Program-made: the position numbers and the translations under genes
Shown here: positions 25,004 to 38,141 of the stretch, one piece after another
Layout: the number at the start of each line of letters is the position of its first letter
How positions within the stretch are numbered: the stretch's first letter is position 1
Assembly (NCBI RefSeq): GCF_008831545.1
Contig: NZ_CP044526.1
Location: forward strand, 1 to 63,455
Length of the DNA: 63,455 nucleotides
From: Halorussus halophilus
GTDB taxonomy: Archaea > Halobacteriota > Halobacteria > Halobacteriales > Haladaptataceae
Reading direction: 5' to 3'
The notes under the pieces: generated by a model
What the model saw: the letters and a program-made list of their open reading frames with translations, nothing else
Told to the model about the DNA's origin: nothing
Database searches by the model: none

Positions 25004-25288
25004 CTATGCACTCTCTTTCGGCATGTACTCGGACTGCCAGTGCCAGCGGTCTTGCAGCACTTTTCGTCCCTGGTCGGTCAACTCGTAACGATTCGTTCTG
25101 CCGTCGTGCTTGCCCTTCTTGATGAAGCCTTCTTCGACCAGCGTGTTGAGGTTAGTGTACAGTCTACCGTGTTGGATGCTACGGTTCTGTGAGCGTTCAA
25201 GTTCTTGTTTGATGTCCTGTCCGTTCGGGTCCTCGAGTCCGTTGAGGACGAACAACAGGTCGCGCTGGAAGCCAGTATAGTCGTGCAT
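25004..25288 (-). CDS. PadR-family transcription regulator
   Basis: 94 aa from the ATG at 25288. It is a winged helix of the PadR type: FQRDLLFVLNGLEDPNGQDI, then the recognition region (GRLYTNLNTLVEEGFIKKGKHDGRTNRYELT). It lacks the long C-terminal dimer helices of larger PadR proteins, as usual in haloarchaea. It stands alone. Its promoter (TATATATGACC region at 25318-25328) is divergent from the candidate RNA at 25432. Confidence 0.9.
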   Translation of the reverse strand: MHDYTGFQRDLLFVLNGLEDPNGQDIKQELERSQNRSIQHGRLYTNLNTLVEEGFIKKGKHDGRTNRYELTDQGRKVLQDRWHWQSEYMPKESA

Positions 25289-25431
25289 CGAAACCCCTAC
25301 CGACAACTTGGAGAGTCGTGTATATATGACCCGGAGACCGTTGTGGAAAATAGCGGTTCTGTAAGCTTCTCGCGGAACAGGTTATTCTCCGGTCAACCTC
25401 GAAAAACCGCCTCTAAGCGGGGTTTAGGAGC

Positions 25432-25755
25432 CATATAATAAGAAGGCTGTACGTCATACGTAGTCATGTGTCGCCACGCGACTAACCCATACTCCCCTCA
25501 TCCCCCACCCACCCACCTGCCAACCCAGCTCGGTGGCGACACAACTTGCTTCCTGAACCTACGACCGTGAGCGAGAGCTATGGCCTGCGAACGCGAGTCA
25601 TCGTGGTCGATGTAGTCGAGACGGTCGAAGCCACTGCCGAGAGACTGTTTACAGCTTGGTGGAAGTGATACGAGACTCGTCGGACAGTCGGTGACCACGT
25701 TGGCAGGTTCGCTCTCCAAAATTTTTGCGCACCCGCCTAGCGGCGGGTTTCGGCC
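25432..25755 (+). ncRNA. Candidate small RNA transcription unit
   Basis: CATATAATAAG at 25432-25442 is a strong TATA box. About 25 nt downstream begins GTGTCGCCAC (25468-25477), which pairs perfectly with GTGGCGACAC (25533-25542). A 6-bp hairpin CCCGCC/GGCGGG followed by TTT at 25732-25752 could end the RNA, giving about 290 nt. I could not match it to RNase P or SRP RNA. A 34-codon ORF from the ATG at 25466 (MCRHATNPY...) is an alternative product. Confidence 0.4.
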
Positions 25756-25870
25756 CGTGACACAGCCGAACGCGGTCGCGGCACCGCCGCGGGGTGGCCG
25801 CGGCGCGGTCGAGGGTGAGGAAAGAGGGGAGGTGCGGAGGGGAGAAAGGAGAGGGAGACAGTTAGGGATA

Positions 25871-25923
25871 CTAATCGCAAGAAGGGACGCTTTTGTGCAC
25901 ACTACTATGCACAAAAGTACCCG
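25871..25923 (+). repeat. Hairpin element, copy A
   Basis: Begins CTAATCGCAAGA, then GGG, GCT, an apical stem TTGTGCA/TGCACAA with an 8-nt loop, AGT and CCCG. The order (conserved octamer, outer GGG/CCC, GCT/AGC-like pairing, variable apical stem) is shared by four copies. Confidence 0.8.
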
Positions 25924-25987
25924 TGTGGCGTCTTCTGGAACTGTCACGGGTAGTCCGGAGGGAGTTTCCGAAGAGTGGTCGTCGCTT

Positions 25988-26040
25988 CTAATCGCAAGAC
26001 GGCGGTCTTTCGTGAAGGGGTGTCTTCACGATAGCCACCC
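25988..26040 (+). repeat. Hairpin element, copy B
   Basis: CTAATCGCAAGA, then an apical stem TCGTGAAG/CTTCACGA with loop GGGTGT, then TAGCCACCC. The apical stem differs wholly from copy A but still pairs perfectly. It starts 117 bp after copy A. Confidence 0.8.
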
Positions 26041-26092
26041 ATGCAGGTGATTCCGCGGTCGCTGTTCTCGGTTCCTTCCGGAATCGGAGATA

Positions 26093-26146
26093 CTAATCGC
26101 AGGACGGGGAGCTTCTGTGCACCACGTGGTGCACAATAGCCCCCCG
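26093..26146 (+). repeat. Hairpin element, copy C
   Basis: CTAATCGCAGGA, CGGGG, AGCTT, then an apical part that includes the 18-bp perfect palindrome GTGCACCACGTGGTGCAC, then TAGCCCCCCG. It starts 105 bp after copy B. Copies A and C share the GTGCAC type of tip and the upstream bases GATA. Confidence 0.8.
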
Positions 26147-26199
26147 TAGTTGGTAAACCCCGCTAGGCGAACGACTGTTCGGTCGTTGCTGAAGCTGTA

Positions 26200-26330
26200 A
26201 ATTAGGCGTTAGAGATAAATAAAGCTACTATAACACTATATAACTACTCTACTACCCTCTAACAAAATAACCATTTTATTAATGTCAGTAAAAAATAATT
26301 GTACTAGAGATCACTTCTATAAACGGGGAA
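26200..26330. other. AT-rich stretch between hairpin elements C and D
   Basis: Long runs of A/T, with ATAAATAAAG, ACTATATAACTA and AAAAAATAATTG, in a GC-rich genome. It has no gene. Flanked by inverted copies of the hairpin element, it looks like an easily melted region, such as a replication or recombination site. AT-rich foreign DNA is also possible. Confidence 0.6.
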
Positions 26331-26415
26331 GGACAGGAAAACGGACAGAGAACCACCGCTATCGGTTAGATACAGACGTATCCAATCGAGACACACAGAA
26401 CAAGCAGTACCATAA

Positions 26416-26469
26416 CGGGTGGCTATCGTGAAGACACCCCTTCACGAAAGCTTTCCCTCTGGCGATTAG
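26416..26469 (-). repeat. Hairpin element, copy D (inverted)
   Basis: Read on the minus strand: CTAATCGCCAGA, GGG, AAAGCTT, apical stem TCGTGAAG/CTTCACGA with loop GGGTGT (identical to copy B), TAGCCACCCG. It lies on the far side of the AT-rich stretch and points toward copies A-C. Confidence 0.8.
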
Positions 26470-26504
26470 CTAGGTAGAAACGTCAGAACATCATCGCCAC
26501 ATCG

Positions 26505-26912
26505 CTAGCGAGAAAGGTGCATTTCTGTGCTGGTGAACTGAACGAGAGCAGGTCGTCCCGGCGTCTCTACGATTTCTTTGTCTCGGAGGTCGCCAACGAA
26601 CCCCTTGACCCGGCGCTTGCTTAGTTCGAGTTCTTCCGCAAGAGTATCATATCCGACGCCGTGTCGTCGCTCCACCAGCCGACGCAACAATTCGAGTCGA
26701 GTTCGGCCTCCAGACCGAATCCAATGAAGTAGTGACCGATACGCTTGCTCGTGTTCGGAGTGGAGGCGGAAGAGATTCAGAACGCTACGAGCACTCACAC
26801 CTTCCTCGTCTAAACACTCCCAGACCTCATCCGGAACGTCCAACTCTTCTCGGAATTTCAGTCGCTCGCGAGACGGACCAAGCGGTTCGTCCGGTCTGTT
26901 CGGATGCGTCAT
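26505..26912 (-). CDS. Small winged-helix protein
   Basis: 135 aa. The middle (about 65-125) reads as a winged helix: RTRLELLRRLVERRHGVGY, then DTLAEELELSKRRVKGFVGD and a wing up to the C terminus (PALVQFTSTEM). The N-terminal 60 residues are acidic and helical. There is no clear family name. It lies directly beside the hairpin-element cluster, 36 bp from copy D, and may bind those elements (inference). Its start overlaps by ATGA with a possible 35-residue ORF upstream. Confidence 0.7.
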   Translation of the reverse strand: MTHPNRPDEPLGPSRERLKFREELDVPDEVWECLDEEGVSARSVLNLFRLHSEHEQAYRSLLHWIRSGGRTRLELLRRLVERRHGVGYDTLAEELELSKRRVKGFVGDLRDKEIVETPGRPALVQFTSTEMHLSR

Positions 26913-27016
26913 CGCCAGACACCTCCGCTCGGCGCATCCAATTCGTCATCTCCCTGTTTGCCAGTCCGCGGTTCGCGGTTCAGTGCTGTGCTGTCAATCG
27001 TGGTCGTGTCGTACAT
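26909..27016 (-). CDS. Possible 35-residue leader protein coupled to the winged-helix gene
   Basis: ATG at 27016 gives MYDTTTIDSTALNREPRTGK... ending in a TGA that overlaps the ATG of the winged-helix gene. The composition is hydrophilic and mildly acidic, and the overlap suggests translational coupling. A longer start at 27091 is basic and less likely. No family recognised. Confidence 0.35.
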   Translation of the reverse strand: MYDTTTIDSTALNREPRTGKQGDDELDAPSGGVWR

Positions 27017-27352
27017 CGTGGTCGTCACTCTCGATGGCCGACGCCCGAAGACGCCACGCGAGGGATAGCGTTGCCACTCTCCGAAGGGCAATCTATTTCA
27101 TCCTCCCGCGAGAAACCAGAATTGTTCAGGCCCCGGTTTCTCAGCGAGTTGTGTTCTCGATAGCAGTGCGTTTCGTCTGTAGTGACTATTCTCCACCGAT
27201 TAGTCTTAATTCCTGCGGGAGCGCAGGCGAGCGAAGGGGGAAAGAGCGCCGAGAACGCGACCGTCCAAAGCCATCAACTATCCAAATTTTCCGTTCTAGA
27301 CGGGGTAGTTAGACCCTCTATATTAAGGTTCGGCGTAGTGTATAATTCTCTC

Positions 27353-28666
27353 ATGTTCGGAACGAGCGGCATCCGTGGAGAGGTGGGTGACGTAGTGACC
27401 TGCGACCTCGCGCTCGCAGTCGGCCGCGCACTGGCAAGTGAAGGCTACGAGAAAGTCGTCGTCGGCCGCGACCCGCGCGAGAGCGGTGAGATGCTATCTG
27501 ACGCCGTTTCTGCGGGGCTTCGAGAATGTGGTGCGGACGTGGTCCGACTTGGACAGGCCGCGACGCCGACCGTCGCTCGGAGCGTCGGCTGGCAAGACGC
27601 CGACGCTGGGGTCTCGGTCACGGCGAGTCACAACCCCGCGAAGGACAACGGACTCAAGCTGTGGAACCCCTCCGGGCAGGCGTTCGACACTGCTCAGCGC
27701 GAGACCATCGCCGAACGCGTGCGCGAAGAAGACGCCGACTTGCGGCCGTGGGACGGATTGGGCGGCCAGCGCCGTTGGGAGGAAGCCGACGAGTACCACG
27801 CCACGGCCCTCGACGAAGCGGTAGACATCGAGGACGACCTCACCGTCGTCGTGGACGTGGGCAACGGTGCTGGCGGCGTCACCGCCGAAGCACTCCAGCG
27901 ACAGGGGTGTACCGTGACAACGCTGAACGCCCAGCCAGACGGCAGTTTCCCCGCTCGACCGAGCGAACCGACCGAAGAAGCCTGCACGCGACTCTGGCAG
28001 ACCGTCGCGGCGACCGACGCCGACCTCGGTATCGCCCACGACGGAGACGCCGACCGAATGCAGGCTGTCACCGCCGACGGAGAGTTCGTGTCCGGTGACG
28101 TGCTGTTGGCACTGTTCGCACGGGAAACTGCTAGCGAAGGCGACCTCGCGGCGGCACCACTCAACGTCAGTCTCGCGGTGGACGACGCGCTCGCCGAAGT
28201 CGGCGCGTCACTCACTCGAACCAAAGTCGGCGACGTGTTCGTCGCGGAGCGAGCAGCAGAGCCGAACGTCACCTTCGGTGGCGAGGAGAGCGGTGCGTGG
28301 ATTTGGCCCGAAGAGATTCTCTGTCCCGACGGTCCGCTCGCGGCGTGTAAGCTCGCCGAGCTGGTGACCGAACGCGGCCCACTCGCTGACCTCGTCGGCG
28401 AGATTCCGACCTACCCAATCGAGCGGACGAACGTTCGCACCGACGAGAAGGAAGCAGCGATGGAGCGCATCGCTGCGGAGGTCGCAGACCACTACGAAGA
28501 CGTGACGACCGACGACGGCGTTCGCGTGGAGACCGACGACGGCTGGTTCCTCGTTCGAGCGAGCGGTACCCAGCCGTTGATTCGAGTGACAGCGGAGGGT
28601 CGAACCGAATTGCAAGCCGAGGAGTTGTTCGAGGCGGCGTCAGAAATCGTCGAGAAAGCGACGTAG
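27353..28666 (+). CDS. glmM: Phosphoglucosamine mutase-type phosphohexomutase
   Basis: 437 aa from the ATG at 27353, where MFGTSGIRGE is the standard N terminus. The phosphoserine loop TASHNP (about residues 89-94), metal-binding DGDADR, the sugar-binding GEESGAW loop and the C-terminal phosphate-binding RASGTQPLIRV are all present. It converts glucosamine-6-P to glucosamine-1-P, or a related hexose phosphate. With glmS (38171) and the glmU-like gene (29074) it completes a UDP-GlcNAc route. The exact sugar specificity is not shown by sequence alone. Confidence 0.92.
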   Translation: MFGTSGIRGEVGDVVTCDLALAVGRALASEGYEKVVVGRDPRESGEMLSDAVSAGLRECGADVVRLGQAATPTVARSVGWQDADAGVSVTASHNPAKDNGLKLWNPSGQAFDTAQRETIAERVREEDADLRPWDGLGGQRRWEEADEYHATALDEAVDIEDDLTVVVDVGNGAGGVTAEALQRQGCTVTTLNAQPDGSFPARPSEPTEEACTRLWQTVAATDADLGIAHDGDADRMQAVTADGEFVSGDVLLALFARETASEGDLAAAPLNVSLAVDDALAEVGASLTRTKVGDVFVAERAAEPNVTFGGEESGAWIWPEEILCPDGPLAACKLAELVTERGPLADLVGEIPTYPIERTNVRTDEKEAAMERIAAEVADHYEDVTTDDGVRVETDDGWFLVRASGTQPLIRVTAEGRTELQAEELFEAASEIVEKAT

Positions 28667-35986: not shown

Positions 35987-37177
35987 TCAATCCTCGGACA
36001 GCACGTTGTCTACGACGCGCGGCTCTTCGAGTAGTCGGTGCTCGGTGTAGCTACCCTCCGCACTCCCGCCGCTCTGGCGGGCTTGCTCGATGACGTCGAG
36101 GAAGGCGTGTTCGCGAAGCAAATCCCTGACCCGGCGAGTCGAGAGCGGGTCTACGCCTTCCTGTTCGCAGATTCGCTCATAGGCCTCGTAGACGGTCGAG
36201 GTGCGGAACGCCGAGCCGTCTTTGTCGTTGAGCGCGAGGATGGCGAGCGCGCGCAGTGCGTGCTTCGAGTGGGGCGTCGCACCGCGGATGAGTTCGCGGA
36301 AGCGGTCGTTCTCTGCGTGGTCGCGAGCCTGCTCGATGTAGTTCTCTCGGACGACGTTCTCCTCGCGGGACTGGGCGATTTCACCAGCGTAGCGGAGGAT
36401 GTCGATAGCCTTGCGTGCGTCGCCGTGTTCGCGAGCCGCGAGCGCGGCCGCCTTCGGGATAGTGCCATCTTCCAGAACGTCGTCTTTGAACGCGTCACTG
36501 CGGGCTTCCATGATGGAGCGCAGTTGGTTGGCGTCGTACGGCGGGAAGACGAACTCGCGCTCGCAGAGACTCGACTTGACGCGCTCGTCCATCCGGTCTT
36601 TGTACTTTATCTTGTTACTGATGCCGATGGTGCCGAGCTTGCAGTTGTCGAGTTTCCCGGCTTCGCCGGCGCGCGAAAGCTGCATGAGGATGGCGTCGTC
36701 TTCGAGTTTGTCGATCTCGTCGAGGATGACCACGGTCACGTCGTACTCGGCATCGAGGATGCGCCAGAGGCGTTTGTAGTACGTCGAGGTCGATATTCCT
36801 TTGTCGGGAACGCTGACAGGGGTTTCAGGCGTGTTGAGTTCGCTCGCAATCGTTTGGACGGTCTGAGTCTCGGTATTGTCCTGCGCGCAATCGACGTACG
36901 CGCGACCGACGGTGACGCCCTCCTTCTCCGCTTCGGAGACGAGTTGCTGGGAGACGTGTTTCGCACAGAGGGACTTCCCGGTCCCGGTCTTCCCGTAGAC
37001 GAGGACGTTGCTCGGACTCTGACCGAACAGCGCGGGGTTGAGCGCGTTGGCCAGCGACTGGAGTTCTTCGTCGCGACCAACGATGCGACCGTCGTCCGGG
37101 AGATGGTTGATTTCGAGTAGCTCCTTGTCCGCGAAGATAGGGTCCTCCCGAGAGAAGAGTTCGCTGGAGTCGGCCAT
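35987..37177 (-). CDS. orc1: Orc1/Cdc6-type origin-binding AAA+ protein, second copy
   Basis: 396 aa from the ATG at 37177. Walker A GKTGTGKS (62-69), Walker B VVILDEIDKL and sensor 1 GISNKI, then a C-terminal winged helix (VYEAYERICEQEGVDPLSTRRVRDLL, cut short). Class A origin boxes begin 2 bp before its start and continue to 37973, with one more past its stop. It is the likely initiator for origin 2. Sequence GC and codon use match the host genome better than those of its neighbour. Confidence 0.95.
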   Translation of the reverse strand: MADSSELFSREDPIFADKELLEINHLPDDGRIVGRDEELQSLANALNPALFGQSPSNVLVYGKTGTGKSLCAKHVSQQLVSEAEKEGVTVGRAYVDCAQDNTETQTVQTIASELNTPETPVSVPDKGISTSTYYKRLWRILDAEYDVTVVILDEIDKLEDDAILMQLSRAGEAGKLDNCKLGTIGISNKIKYKDRMDERVKSSLCEREFVFPPYDANQLRSIMEARSDAFKDDVLEDGTIPKAAALAAREHGDARKAIDILRYAGEIAQSREENVVRENYIEQARDHAENDRFRELIRGATPHSKHALRALAILALNDKDGSAFRTSTVYEAYERICEQEGVDPLSTRRVRDLLREHAFLDVIEQARQSGGSAEGSYTEHRLLEEPRVVDNVLSED

Positions 37178-37178
37178 G

Positions 37179-37341
37179 ACACCACGTTTCCAGTGAAATA
37201 TCTTTAGTGTTCGGACTGGCGGCCGGACAGACACACCAGGTTTCCAGTGAAACGCCTCGAAGAGGGGTGGACGGTCCAGTCGAAACGGAGGTTCGTTCAC
37301 TGGAAACTAGGTCTGCGTTCACCGGAAACGTGGTGTGTTCC
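37179..37341. repeat. Cluster of class A origin boxes
   Basis: TTTCCAGTGAAA-core boxes at 37179-37198 and 37231-37253 point one way. TTCACTGGAAAC (about 37298) and TTCACCGGAAACGTGGTGTG (37319-37338) point the other. They overlap the promoter of the initiator gene, so initiation and autoregulation are probably linked. Confidence 0.75.
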
Positions 37342-37493
37342 GAACCAACCCACTCTCAGAAAGTTGAGAAATGAACAGAGATATCGCTACTAAATCCCTT
37401 AATCCGCCTAAAATCGAGGTGTTCGAAGAGTCCGAAGTCGAACATACTCTCGGAACGAGTTTCCGGGAGTCGGGGAAAATCGAGGTGAGACAT

Positions 37494-37973
37494 ACACACC
37501 AGGTTTCCAGTGAAACGAGAGATAACGGTGGGTGGGGGCACCCCTGGAGTCGGTTGAAAAGAGCCGGTTCAGAACTCAACGCTCAGACGCACGAATAGAA
37601 TAGTCGTTTCGACAGAGAACACGAAGCTCTCGAATGGTGGGAAAGACGTACAGACCGACCGAAATCGCCGTTTCACGTCCAACAATCCGTGACAAAGTCA
37701 CGGATTATTTAATTGTCTTTGACTAACTTAATGGACTTTGAAGTAGGGTAAGATAATAAAGTTCTAGGAAACAGCTCCACTACTGGATAGAGTTCTTATA
37801 TTAATCATAACTGGTTCTCTAGCAACATAGCGGAAATAATCTCCGCATTCCCCTCTCACGGATACGCCTTTTGAACCCGTTTCACTGGAAACACGGTGTG
37901 TGTCCGCACCACGTTTCGACTCCAACTGCTTCCACTTTCGCGACTATCGTTTCACTGGAAACCCGGTGTGTGG
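37494..37973. other. Candidate replication origin 2 (class A boxes around AT-rich DNA)
   Basis: ACACACCAGGTTTCCAGTG (37494-37512) on the left, and two inverted boxes TTTCACTGGAAACMCGGTGT at 37880-37903 and 37950-37973 on the right, enclose about 360 bp with very AT-rich parts (37700-37840). Inside is a perfect inverted repeat AATCCGTGAC/GTCACGGATT (37684-37706). This is the typical arrangement of an Orc1/Cdc6-dependent origin. The G-rich tail seen in the main-chromosome haloarchaeal box is replaced here by GTGTGTG. Confidence 0.8.
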
Positions 37974-38060
37974 CTTTACCACGCTAACAGCACTCTCACT
38001 AGAAACCAAGCAACGCGAAAGACCAAATCACGCTAAAAACCCAAGTCGCGGCGAAAACTG

Positions 38061-38141
38061 AACTACGACAAAATAGACTGCAACTCAAAATAGAATACAA
38101 CCCGAAAATAGACTGCAATCCGAAAATAGGCCGCAAACCGG
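38061..38141 (-). repeat. Tandem 18-bp repeats carrying T tracts downstream of glmS
   Basis: On the glmS strand, about four copies of a unit like TTGCAGTCTATTTTCGGA follow the stop by 30-110 nt. Each copy has a TATTTT core. Archaeal transcription ends at U-rich stretches, so this looks like an array of terminators between glmS and the origin. Confidence 0.6.

Follow-up and report, generated by a model that had tools for sequence, protein, structure and literature searches.

Four composite dyad elements around an AT-rich core in Halorussus halophilus, and a sequence block they share with other haloarchaea

What is the function of a short stretch of haloarchaeal DNA in which one imperfect hairpin occurs four times around an AT-rich core, next to a gene for a small protein? 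A first-pass annotation, made from the sequence of the window (the whole 63,455-nt stretch of Halorussus halophilus DNA analysed here), had suggested a single-stranded recombination site array of the attC or REP type, a plasmid origin with hairpins, or a family of small structured RNAs. We compared the array with haloarchaeal genomes, phages, plasmids and viral contigs and weighed these readings against the alternative that the repeats are double-stranded protein-binding sites.

Geometry of the four elements

The array comprises three direct copies (A, B and C) and one inverted copy (D), placed and spaced (117 and 105 bp between the direct copies) as first described (Table 1). Each element is about 52 bp long: a constant block of 15 letters comes first and a palindrome of 28 letters after it, in all four copies on this one 63-kb contig. 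Their alignment reads CTAATCGC-NN-GANGG, then the 28-bp dyad, then CC(C); within the dyad the common text is CTT..GTG.A....T.CAC.A.AG, then CC. The octamer CTAATCGC is indeed invariant, and each copy has the outer GG(G)/CC(C) pairing, the inner CT/AG pairs and the apical stem previously assigned to it. The asymmetric 15-bp block of the array copies is CTAATCGCnnGAnGG, also written AATCGCAAGACGGCG. In all four copies the dyad centre lies exactly +33.5 from the octamer, and in copy C the four loop bases are palindromic too.

Table 1. Coordinates of the array and of its surroundings in the window
Feature	Coordinates	Strand	Details
Copy A	25871-25922	+	Block CTAATCGCAAGAAGG 25871-25885; 28-bp dyad 25890-25917; CCC 25920-25922
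Copy B	25988-26040	+	Block CTAATCGCAAGACGG 25988-26002; dyad 26007-26034
Copy C	26093-26147	+	Block CTAATCGCAGGACGG 26093-26107; near-perfect dyad 26112-26139, centre TGTGCACCACGTGGTGCACA
Copy D, inverted	26417-26469	-	Block CTAATCGCCAGAGGG 26469-26455; dyad 26423-26450; apical stem as in B
AT-rich core	26196-26325		26.9% GC; lowest-GC 130 bp of the 63-kb window; between C and D
135-aa orphan protein; C-terminal half probably a winged helix	26505-26912	-	About 35 nt between its stop codon and copy D
Segment with array, AT core and 135-aa gene	25544-27334		1.79 kb; replaced by 438 unrelated bp in G013
PadR-family regulator gene, conserved left flank	25004-25306	-	85% amino acid identity in G013
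glmM-type phosphoglucosamine/phosphomannomutase gene, conserved right flank	27353-28666	+	Gene call, also in relatives

All eight half-sites of the dyads (in order, CTTTTGTGCAC, CTTTTGTGCAT, CTTTCGTGAAG, CTATCGTGAAG, CTTCTGTGCAC, CTATTGTGCAC, CTTTCGTGAAG and CTATCGTGAAG) fit CT[TA][TC][CT]GTG[CA]A (CTWYYGTGMA), and GTGnA is kept in every one. The two apical stems, TGTGCAC and CGTGAAG, had been regarded as unrelated; they share GTGnA and are forms of one degenerate half-site. A 28-bp dyad with conserved half-sites is what a dimeric helix-turn-helix protein typically occupies, and the array has the features of an operator cluster: several dyads, a half-site conserved eight times and a fixed geometry. 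Some observations count against an operator reading. The spacings of 117 and 105 bp are no common multiple of the helical repeat, and the array sits 3' of the 135-aa gene, whereas autoregulation usually acts through sites in the promoter. The inverted copy had been said to lie across about 130 bp of AT-rich DNA; the core does have this length, while the gap between C and D that contains it is about 270 bp.

A covariance model of the four copies detected no fifth copy in the organism's own 4.45-Mb genome, in which only the clustered four score. With four copies holding one geometry to the base and no further genomic copy, the array is beyond chance. It might nonetheless be functionless, one hairpin that was locally duplicated and is now drifting, given its confinement to a single genome and the identical apical stem of B and D. 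The latter two copies, which are 89% identical over 53 nt, are copies of one hairpin, a possibility that the first-pass annotation had itself raised. Drift is, however, difficult to reconcile with an invariant octamer, invariant GTGnA half-sites and base-exact geometry between spacers that have no detectable similarity to one another, or with the conservation of the block in other genomes (below), and we regard this as the least probable of the explanations considered.

Copies A, B and C share a reading frame (LIARR... peptides). A coding origin of the repeats was rejected by inspection, given the single-base indels and the fixed codon third positions among the Natrialbaceae relatives.

A wider block and the loss of the hairpin

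Each copy folds better than its shuffles, with z of -2.1 to -5.4 on one strand and of -3.3 to -6.6 on its complement. The two strands are thus about equal in folding, and neither is singled out as the one that would be RNA. Among the 12 pairs of the four-copy alignment, eight are invariant, one varies on one side and three are changed on both sides; the changes separate only A/C from B/D, that is, they record one or two events. The proposal that structure rather than sequence is kept therefore needs revision, since both are kept, and the joint retention of GTGnA half-sites and symmetry is as expected of operators.

To find relatives of the element, 392 haloarchaeal genomes were searched. The full element is absent from every other genome of this sample. 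A covariance model built from the window copies alone matched 12 other genomes at E<=0.01, with about four expected by chance, and in three of the 12 (L024, L032 and L034, placed in Natrinema by an N. gari record) the match lies upstream of type IV pilin genes. The same three loci were the only matches outside the window to a spaced pattern (0 for the reversed control, 392 genomes), and a scan of genome contigs returned Natrinema gari, at the same place as L032, and a chance match in Nitrococcus. A DNA search with 631 bp of the array region found nothing in phages or plasmids, and pattern scans of viral contigs gave nothing or chance matches only. The block alone is far more widespread: CTAATCGCMAGASGG occurs 40 times in the 392 genomes against two reversed-control matches.

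Iterated profiles extended the Natrinema matches to a conserved element, about 80 bp long, that precedes type IV pilin genes across a family that we infer to be Natrialbaceae. It reads AATCGCAAGACGGC...GCTTCAAG...GCTGKA...CTGATTMTCAGTTYTGAAA (loci L024, L032, L034, L044-L066 and L102-L215). A TATA box follows it after about 60 bp and the start codon after about 250 bp. In the fetched loci, 74 of 82 profile matches are followed on their own strand, 200-480 bp further on, by a pilin gene; the other eight comprise three before a divergent pilin type, one interrupted by a transposase, one relic-like and three weak. The model finds no such element beside four pilin loci, plus a weak fifth, located in the H. 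halophilus genome itself. A limited full-text literature search found no publication on the pilin element or on the block. When a Natrialbaceae-only profile was run on the window, its top four matches were B, D, C and A, through AATCGCnAGAnGG...TTC, and none of 4000 simulated 631-bp regions reached the best observed score, a blind test that is not fully independent because the profile's loci had been gathered with models containing the window copies.

In a second class, about 100 bp separate the block from the 3' end of a tRNA-Glu, -Gly or -Thr gene, and a tyrosine integrase gene stands on its opposite side; PF00589 was found in all three integrase genes tested. Here the block is repeated directly in the form AATCGCMAGACGG (L216, L222, L228, L232, L234, L235, L028 and L030), at +87 in six loci (+86 in one of them) and at -58 or -51 in four, against a chance level of 0.14 matches per 600 bp. 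These repeats are like integrase arm sites, and they have no dyad. In two further loci (L230 and L244) the block is subterminal and inverted in a MITE-like element, roughly 330 bp long, whose terminal inverted repeats (CCCATATTCCGCACCCC) measure 17 bp.

In L244 the MITE-like element adjoins one end of a CRISPR array; a role of the block as a CRISPR leader motif was rejected, as the block belongs to an element also found in L230. Blocks were also observed upstream of dnaK (L239 and L240), upstream of the hsp20-like gene of an hsp20/cdc48 pair (L242) and, inside a large inverted repeat, upstream of the gene for elongation factor 1-alpha (L245).

None of these relatives has the hairpin. The Natrinema copies fold no better than shuffles, 28 of 29 other block-bearing loci fold at about the chance level, with single folds near z=0, and RNAalifold assigned 0 consensus pairs to a 25-sequence alignment of block relatives. 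Recurrence of the octamer together with covarying stems in many genomes, near the same gene or a recombinase, had been named as what would support the first proposals; the block does recur, near tyrosine integrases and pilins, but the covarying stems do not. Thus, the conserved entity is linear DNA and the palindrome is a local addition.

These results bear on the suggested RNA family. Hairpins that outdo shuffles and three pairs with compensatory change would suit a small structured RNA, or hairpins within a long transcript. We nevertheless consider this improbable: Rfam yielded no match up to E=1 in the 20-32 kb region of the window, the covariation is a single split between A/C and B/D, there is no strand preference, the inverted copy would yield an RNA of opposite strand, and the block relatives lost the hairpin or never had it. 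Both the RNA reading and functionless duplication are less likely than the two alternatives discussed next.

The neighbouring protein, the insertion and the contig

In a syntenic genome of the same genus (G013), the PadR gene and glmM are separated by 438 bp that lack the array segment, which is thus an insertion relative to this relative. Upstream of the PadR gene, positions 25463-25543 (GTGTCGCCACGCG...CCACCCACCTGCCAACCCAGCTCGGTGGCGACACA) are conserved in G013, can pair end to end and are possibly a leader hairpin.

The insertion is one reason to consider that the array is a relic or miniature mobile element, about 599 bp long with CTAATCGC and GCGATTAG as its borders, whose repeats would be binding sites of a recombinase or transposase. 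The fixed spacing of the block beside tyrosine integrases elsewhere and its subterminal, inverted position in the MITE-like element point the same way. Set against this, the genome has no other copy, no matching target-site duplication was seen in the flanks, the integrase-linked blocks lack the dyad, and no integrase or tRNA gene was found near the array; a transposase is likewise missing from the surrounding ORFs, as had been noted at first. On balance, such a relic is unlikely.

The 135-aa protein had been called a winged-helix protein; the matches behind this probable assignment are weak (RPA_C, E=0.008; Lrs14, E=0.0085; PHROG 15150 'transcriptional regulator', E=3.7e-5). No close relative was found in a protein search of phages, plasmids, viral contigs and 99 genomes, in which the best similarity covered the C-terminal HTH only (about 35% identity), and AlphaFold on the single sequence gave a model too poor for use (pLDDT 46).

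The contig ends (1-1108 and 63091-63455) meet exactly within one 16S rRNA gene, and the rrn copy that the contig carries is about 1% divergent from the one on the chromosome (contig C1), so that the 63-kb contig is possibly a circular replicon with an rRNA operon. It encodes two Orc1/Cdc6 proteins and one ParA-like ATPase, the gene for the latter lying 15 kb from the array. A canonical haloarchaeal Orc1/ORB origin, with inverted TTCACTGGAAAC...GGTGTGT repeats around AT-rich DNA, is located at 37226-37983; it adjoins orc1 (35987-37300), is 11 kb from the array and shares no ORB sequence with it. The proposed plasmid origin, understood as an Orc1 origin, was therefore rejected for the array. Three AAAATAGACTGCAA-type repeats were also seen at 38070-38125, near the ORB origin.

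A partition site or secondary origin would be a different matter: in a small replicon the dyads could be iteron-like or form a centromere of the parS kind, and the 135-aa protein could be the site-binding component that works with the ParA-like ATPase. This would agree with the possible circularity of the contig and its divergent rrn copy, with its complement of Orc1/Cdc6 and ParA-like genes, and with inverted repeats pointing towards the window's most AT-rich stretch. Yet the contig already has its canonical origin beside orc1, the ParA-like gene is distant, and the array is missing from the syntenic G013 contig and is therefore not essential for maintaining the region. Moreover, relatives carry glmM on their main contigs, with an rrn operon at a distance of 26-42 kb, so the segment may be simply chromosomal. 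We place this reading first among the alternatives, while still holding it to be doubtful.

A composite-site reading and its likeness to known systems

The reading that we tentatively prefer, at a little under an even chance, is that the four copies are clustered composite sites at which a dimeric protein would bind double-stranded DNA, and that they were brought in by an insertion of about 1.8 kb; sites of this kind are preferred to RNA since the block recurs as linear DNA without a hairpin. Each site would have two parts: the asymmetric 15-bp block, a member of the wider haloarchaeal DNA motif, and the 28-bp dyad, whose CTWYYGTGMA half-sites would receive a dimeric protein. The orphan winged-helix protein whose gene is about 35 bp away is plausibly the binder, one dimer on each dyad, and the block might be held by the same protein or by another one. 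With all four sites occupied and turned towards a core that melts easily because it is AT-rich, one nucleoprotein complex could then form, which would control promoters in the core or else anchor or partition the DNA. The whole unit would have arrived between the PadR gene and glmM in one piece. The repeats with their dyads and fixed geometry, the wider distribution of the block, the missing hairpin in its relatives and the insertion relative to G013 are observed; protein binding, the identity of the binder and the regulatory or partition role are what we infer from sequence.

A variant of this reading assigns the block to another protein. Because the block recurs at integrase arms and in mobile-element ends and precedes both pilin promoters and heat-shock genes, AATCGCMAGASGG could be the site of an undescribed architectural or global factor of haloarchaea, IHF-like, and the array a four-fold composite of this site with dyads for the local winged-helix protein. 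We think this rather improbable.

The array is probably of an ordinary kind, clustered protein-binding dyads, in an unusual form, and the wider haloarchaeal block of 13-15 bp matters more than the array. If one protein reads all of these sites, pilus expression, mobile-element integration and the array would share a factor that could be isolated with one oligonucleotide.

Among known systems, REP/BIME and attC sites resemble the array in having an octamer followed by an imperfect hairpin and one inverted copy. Both had been suggested and both were rejected: the array is not dispersed, the four clustered copies being the only ones that score in the genome, and there are no cassettes, for which intervals of 105-117 bp leave no room. 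The ORFs around the array include no integron integrase (IntI) and no transposase such as a RAYT. Orc1/Cdc6 origins also have inverted repeats around AT-rich DNA, but they differ in their ORB sequence and adjoining orc1. The integrase/tRNA-junction repeats share with the array the block itself, in several direct copies at fixed spacing, and differ in standing beside a tyrosine integrase and a tRNA gene and in lacking the dyad. The Natrialbaceae pilin element shares the block AATCGCnAGAnGG with CTT about 4-6 bp later, and a few Natrinema pilin copies also contain ATAGC-N-NCC and match the array elements in total length (51-53 bp); the pilin element, however, is a single copy without the palindrome that runs into CTGATTMTCAG, whereas the array has no pilin nearby.

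Archaeal AspA-type partition sites are an example of the clustered operators or iterons of dimeric winged-helix DNA-binding proteins. The array resembles such operators and iterons in that several dyads of about 23-28 bp are clustered beside a small winged-helix gene. A review bears on such systems (PMC5120986). Compared with AspA-type sites, each dyad of the array carries an extra asymmetric 15-bp block and the ParA gene is distant; the likeness to AspA is one of arrangement.
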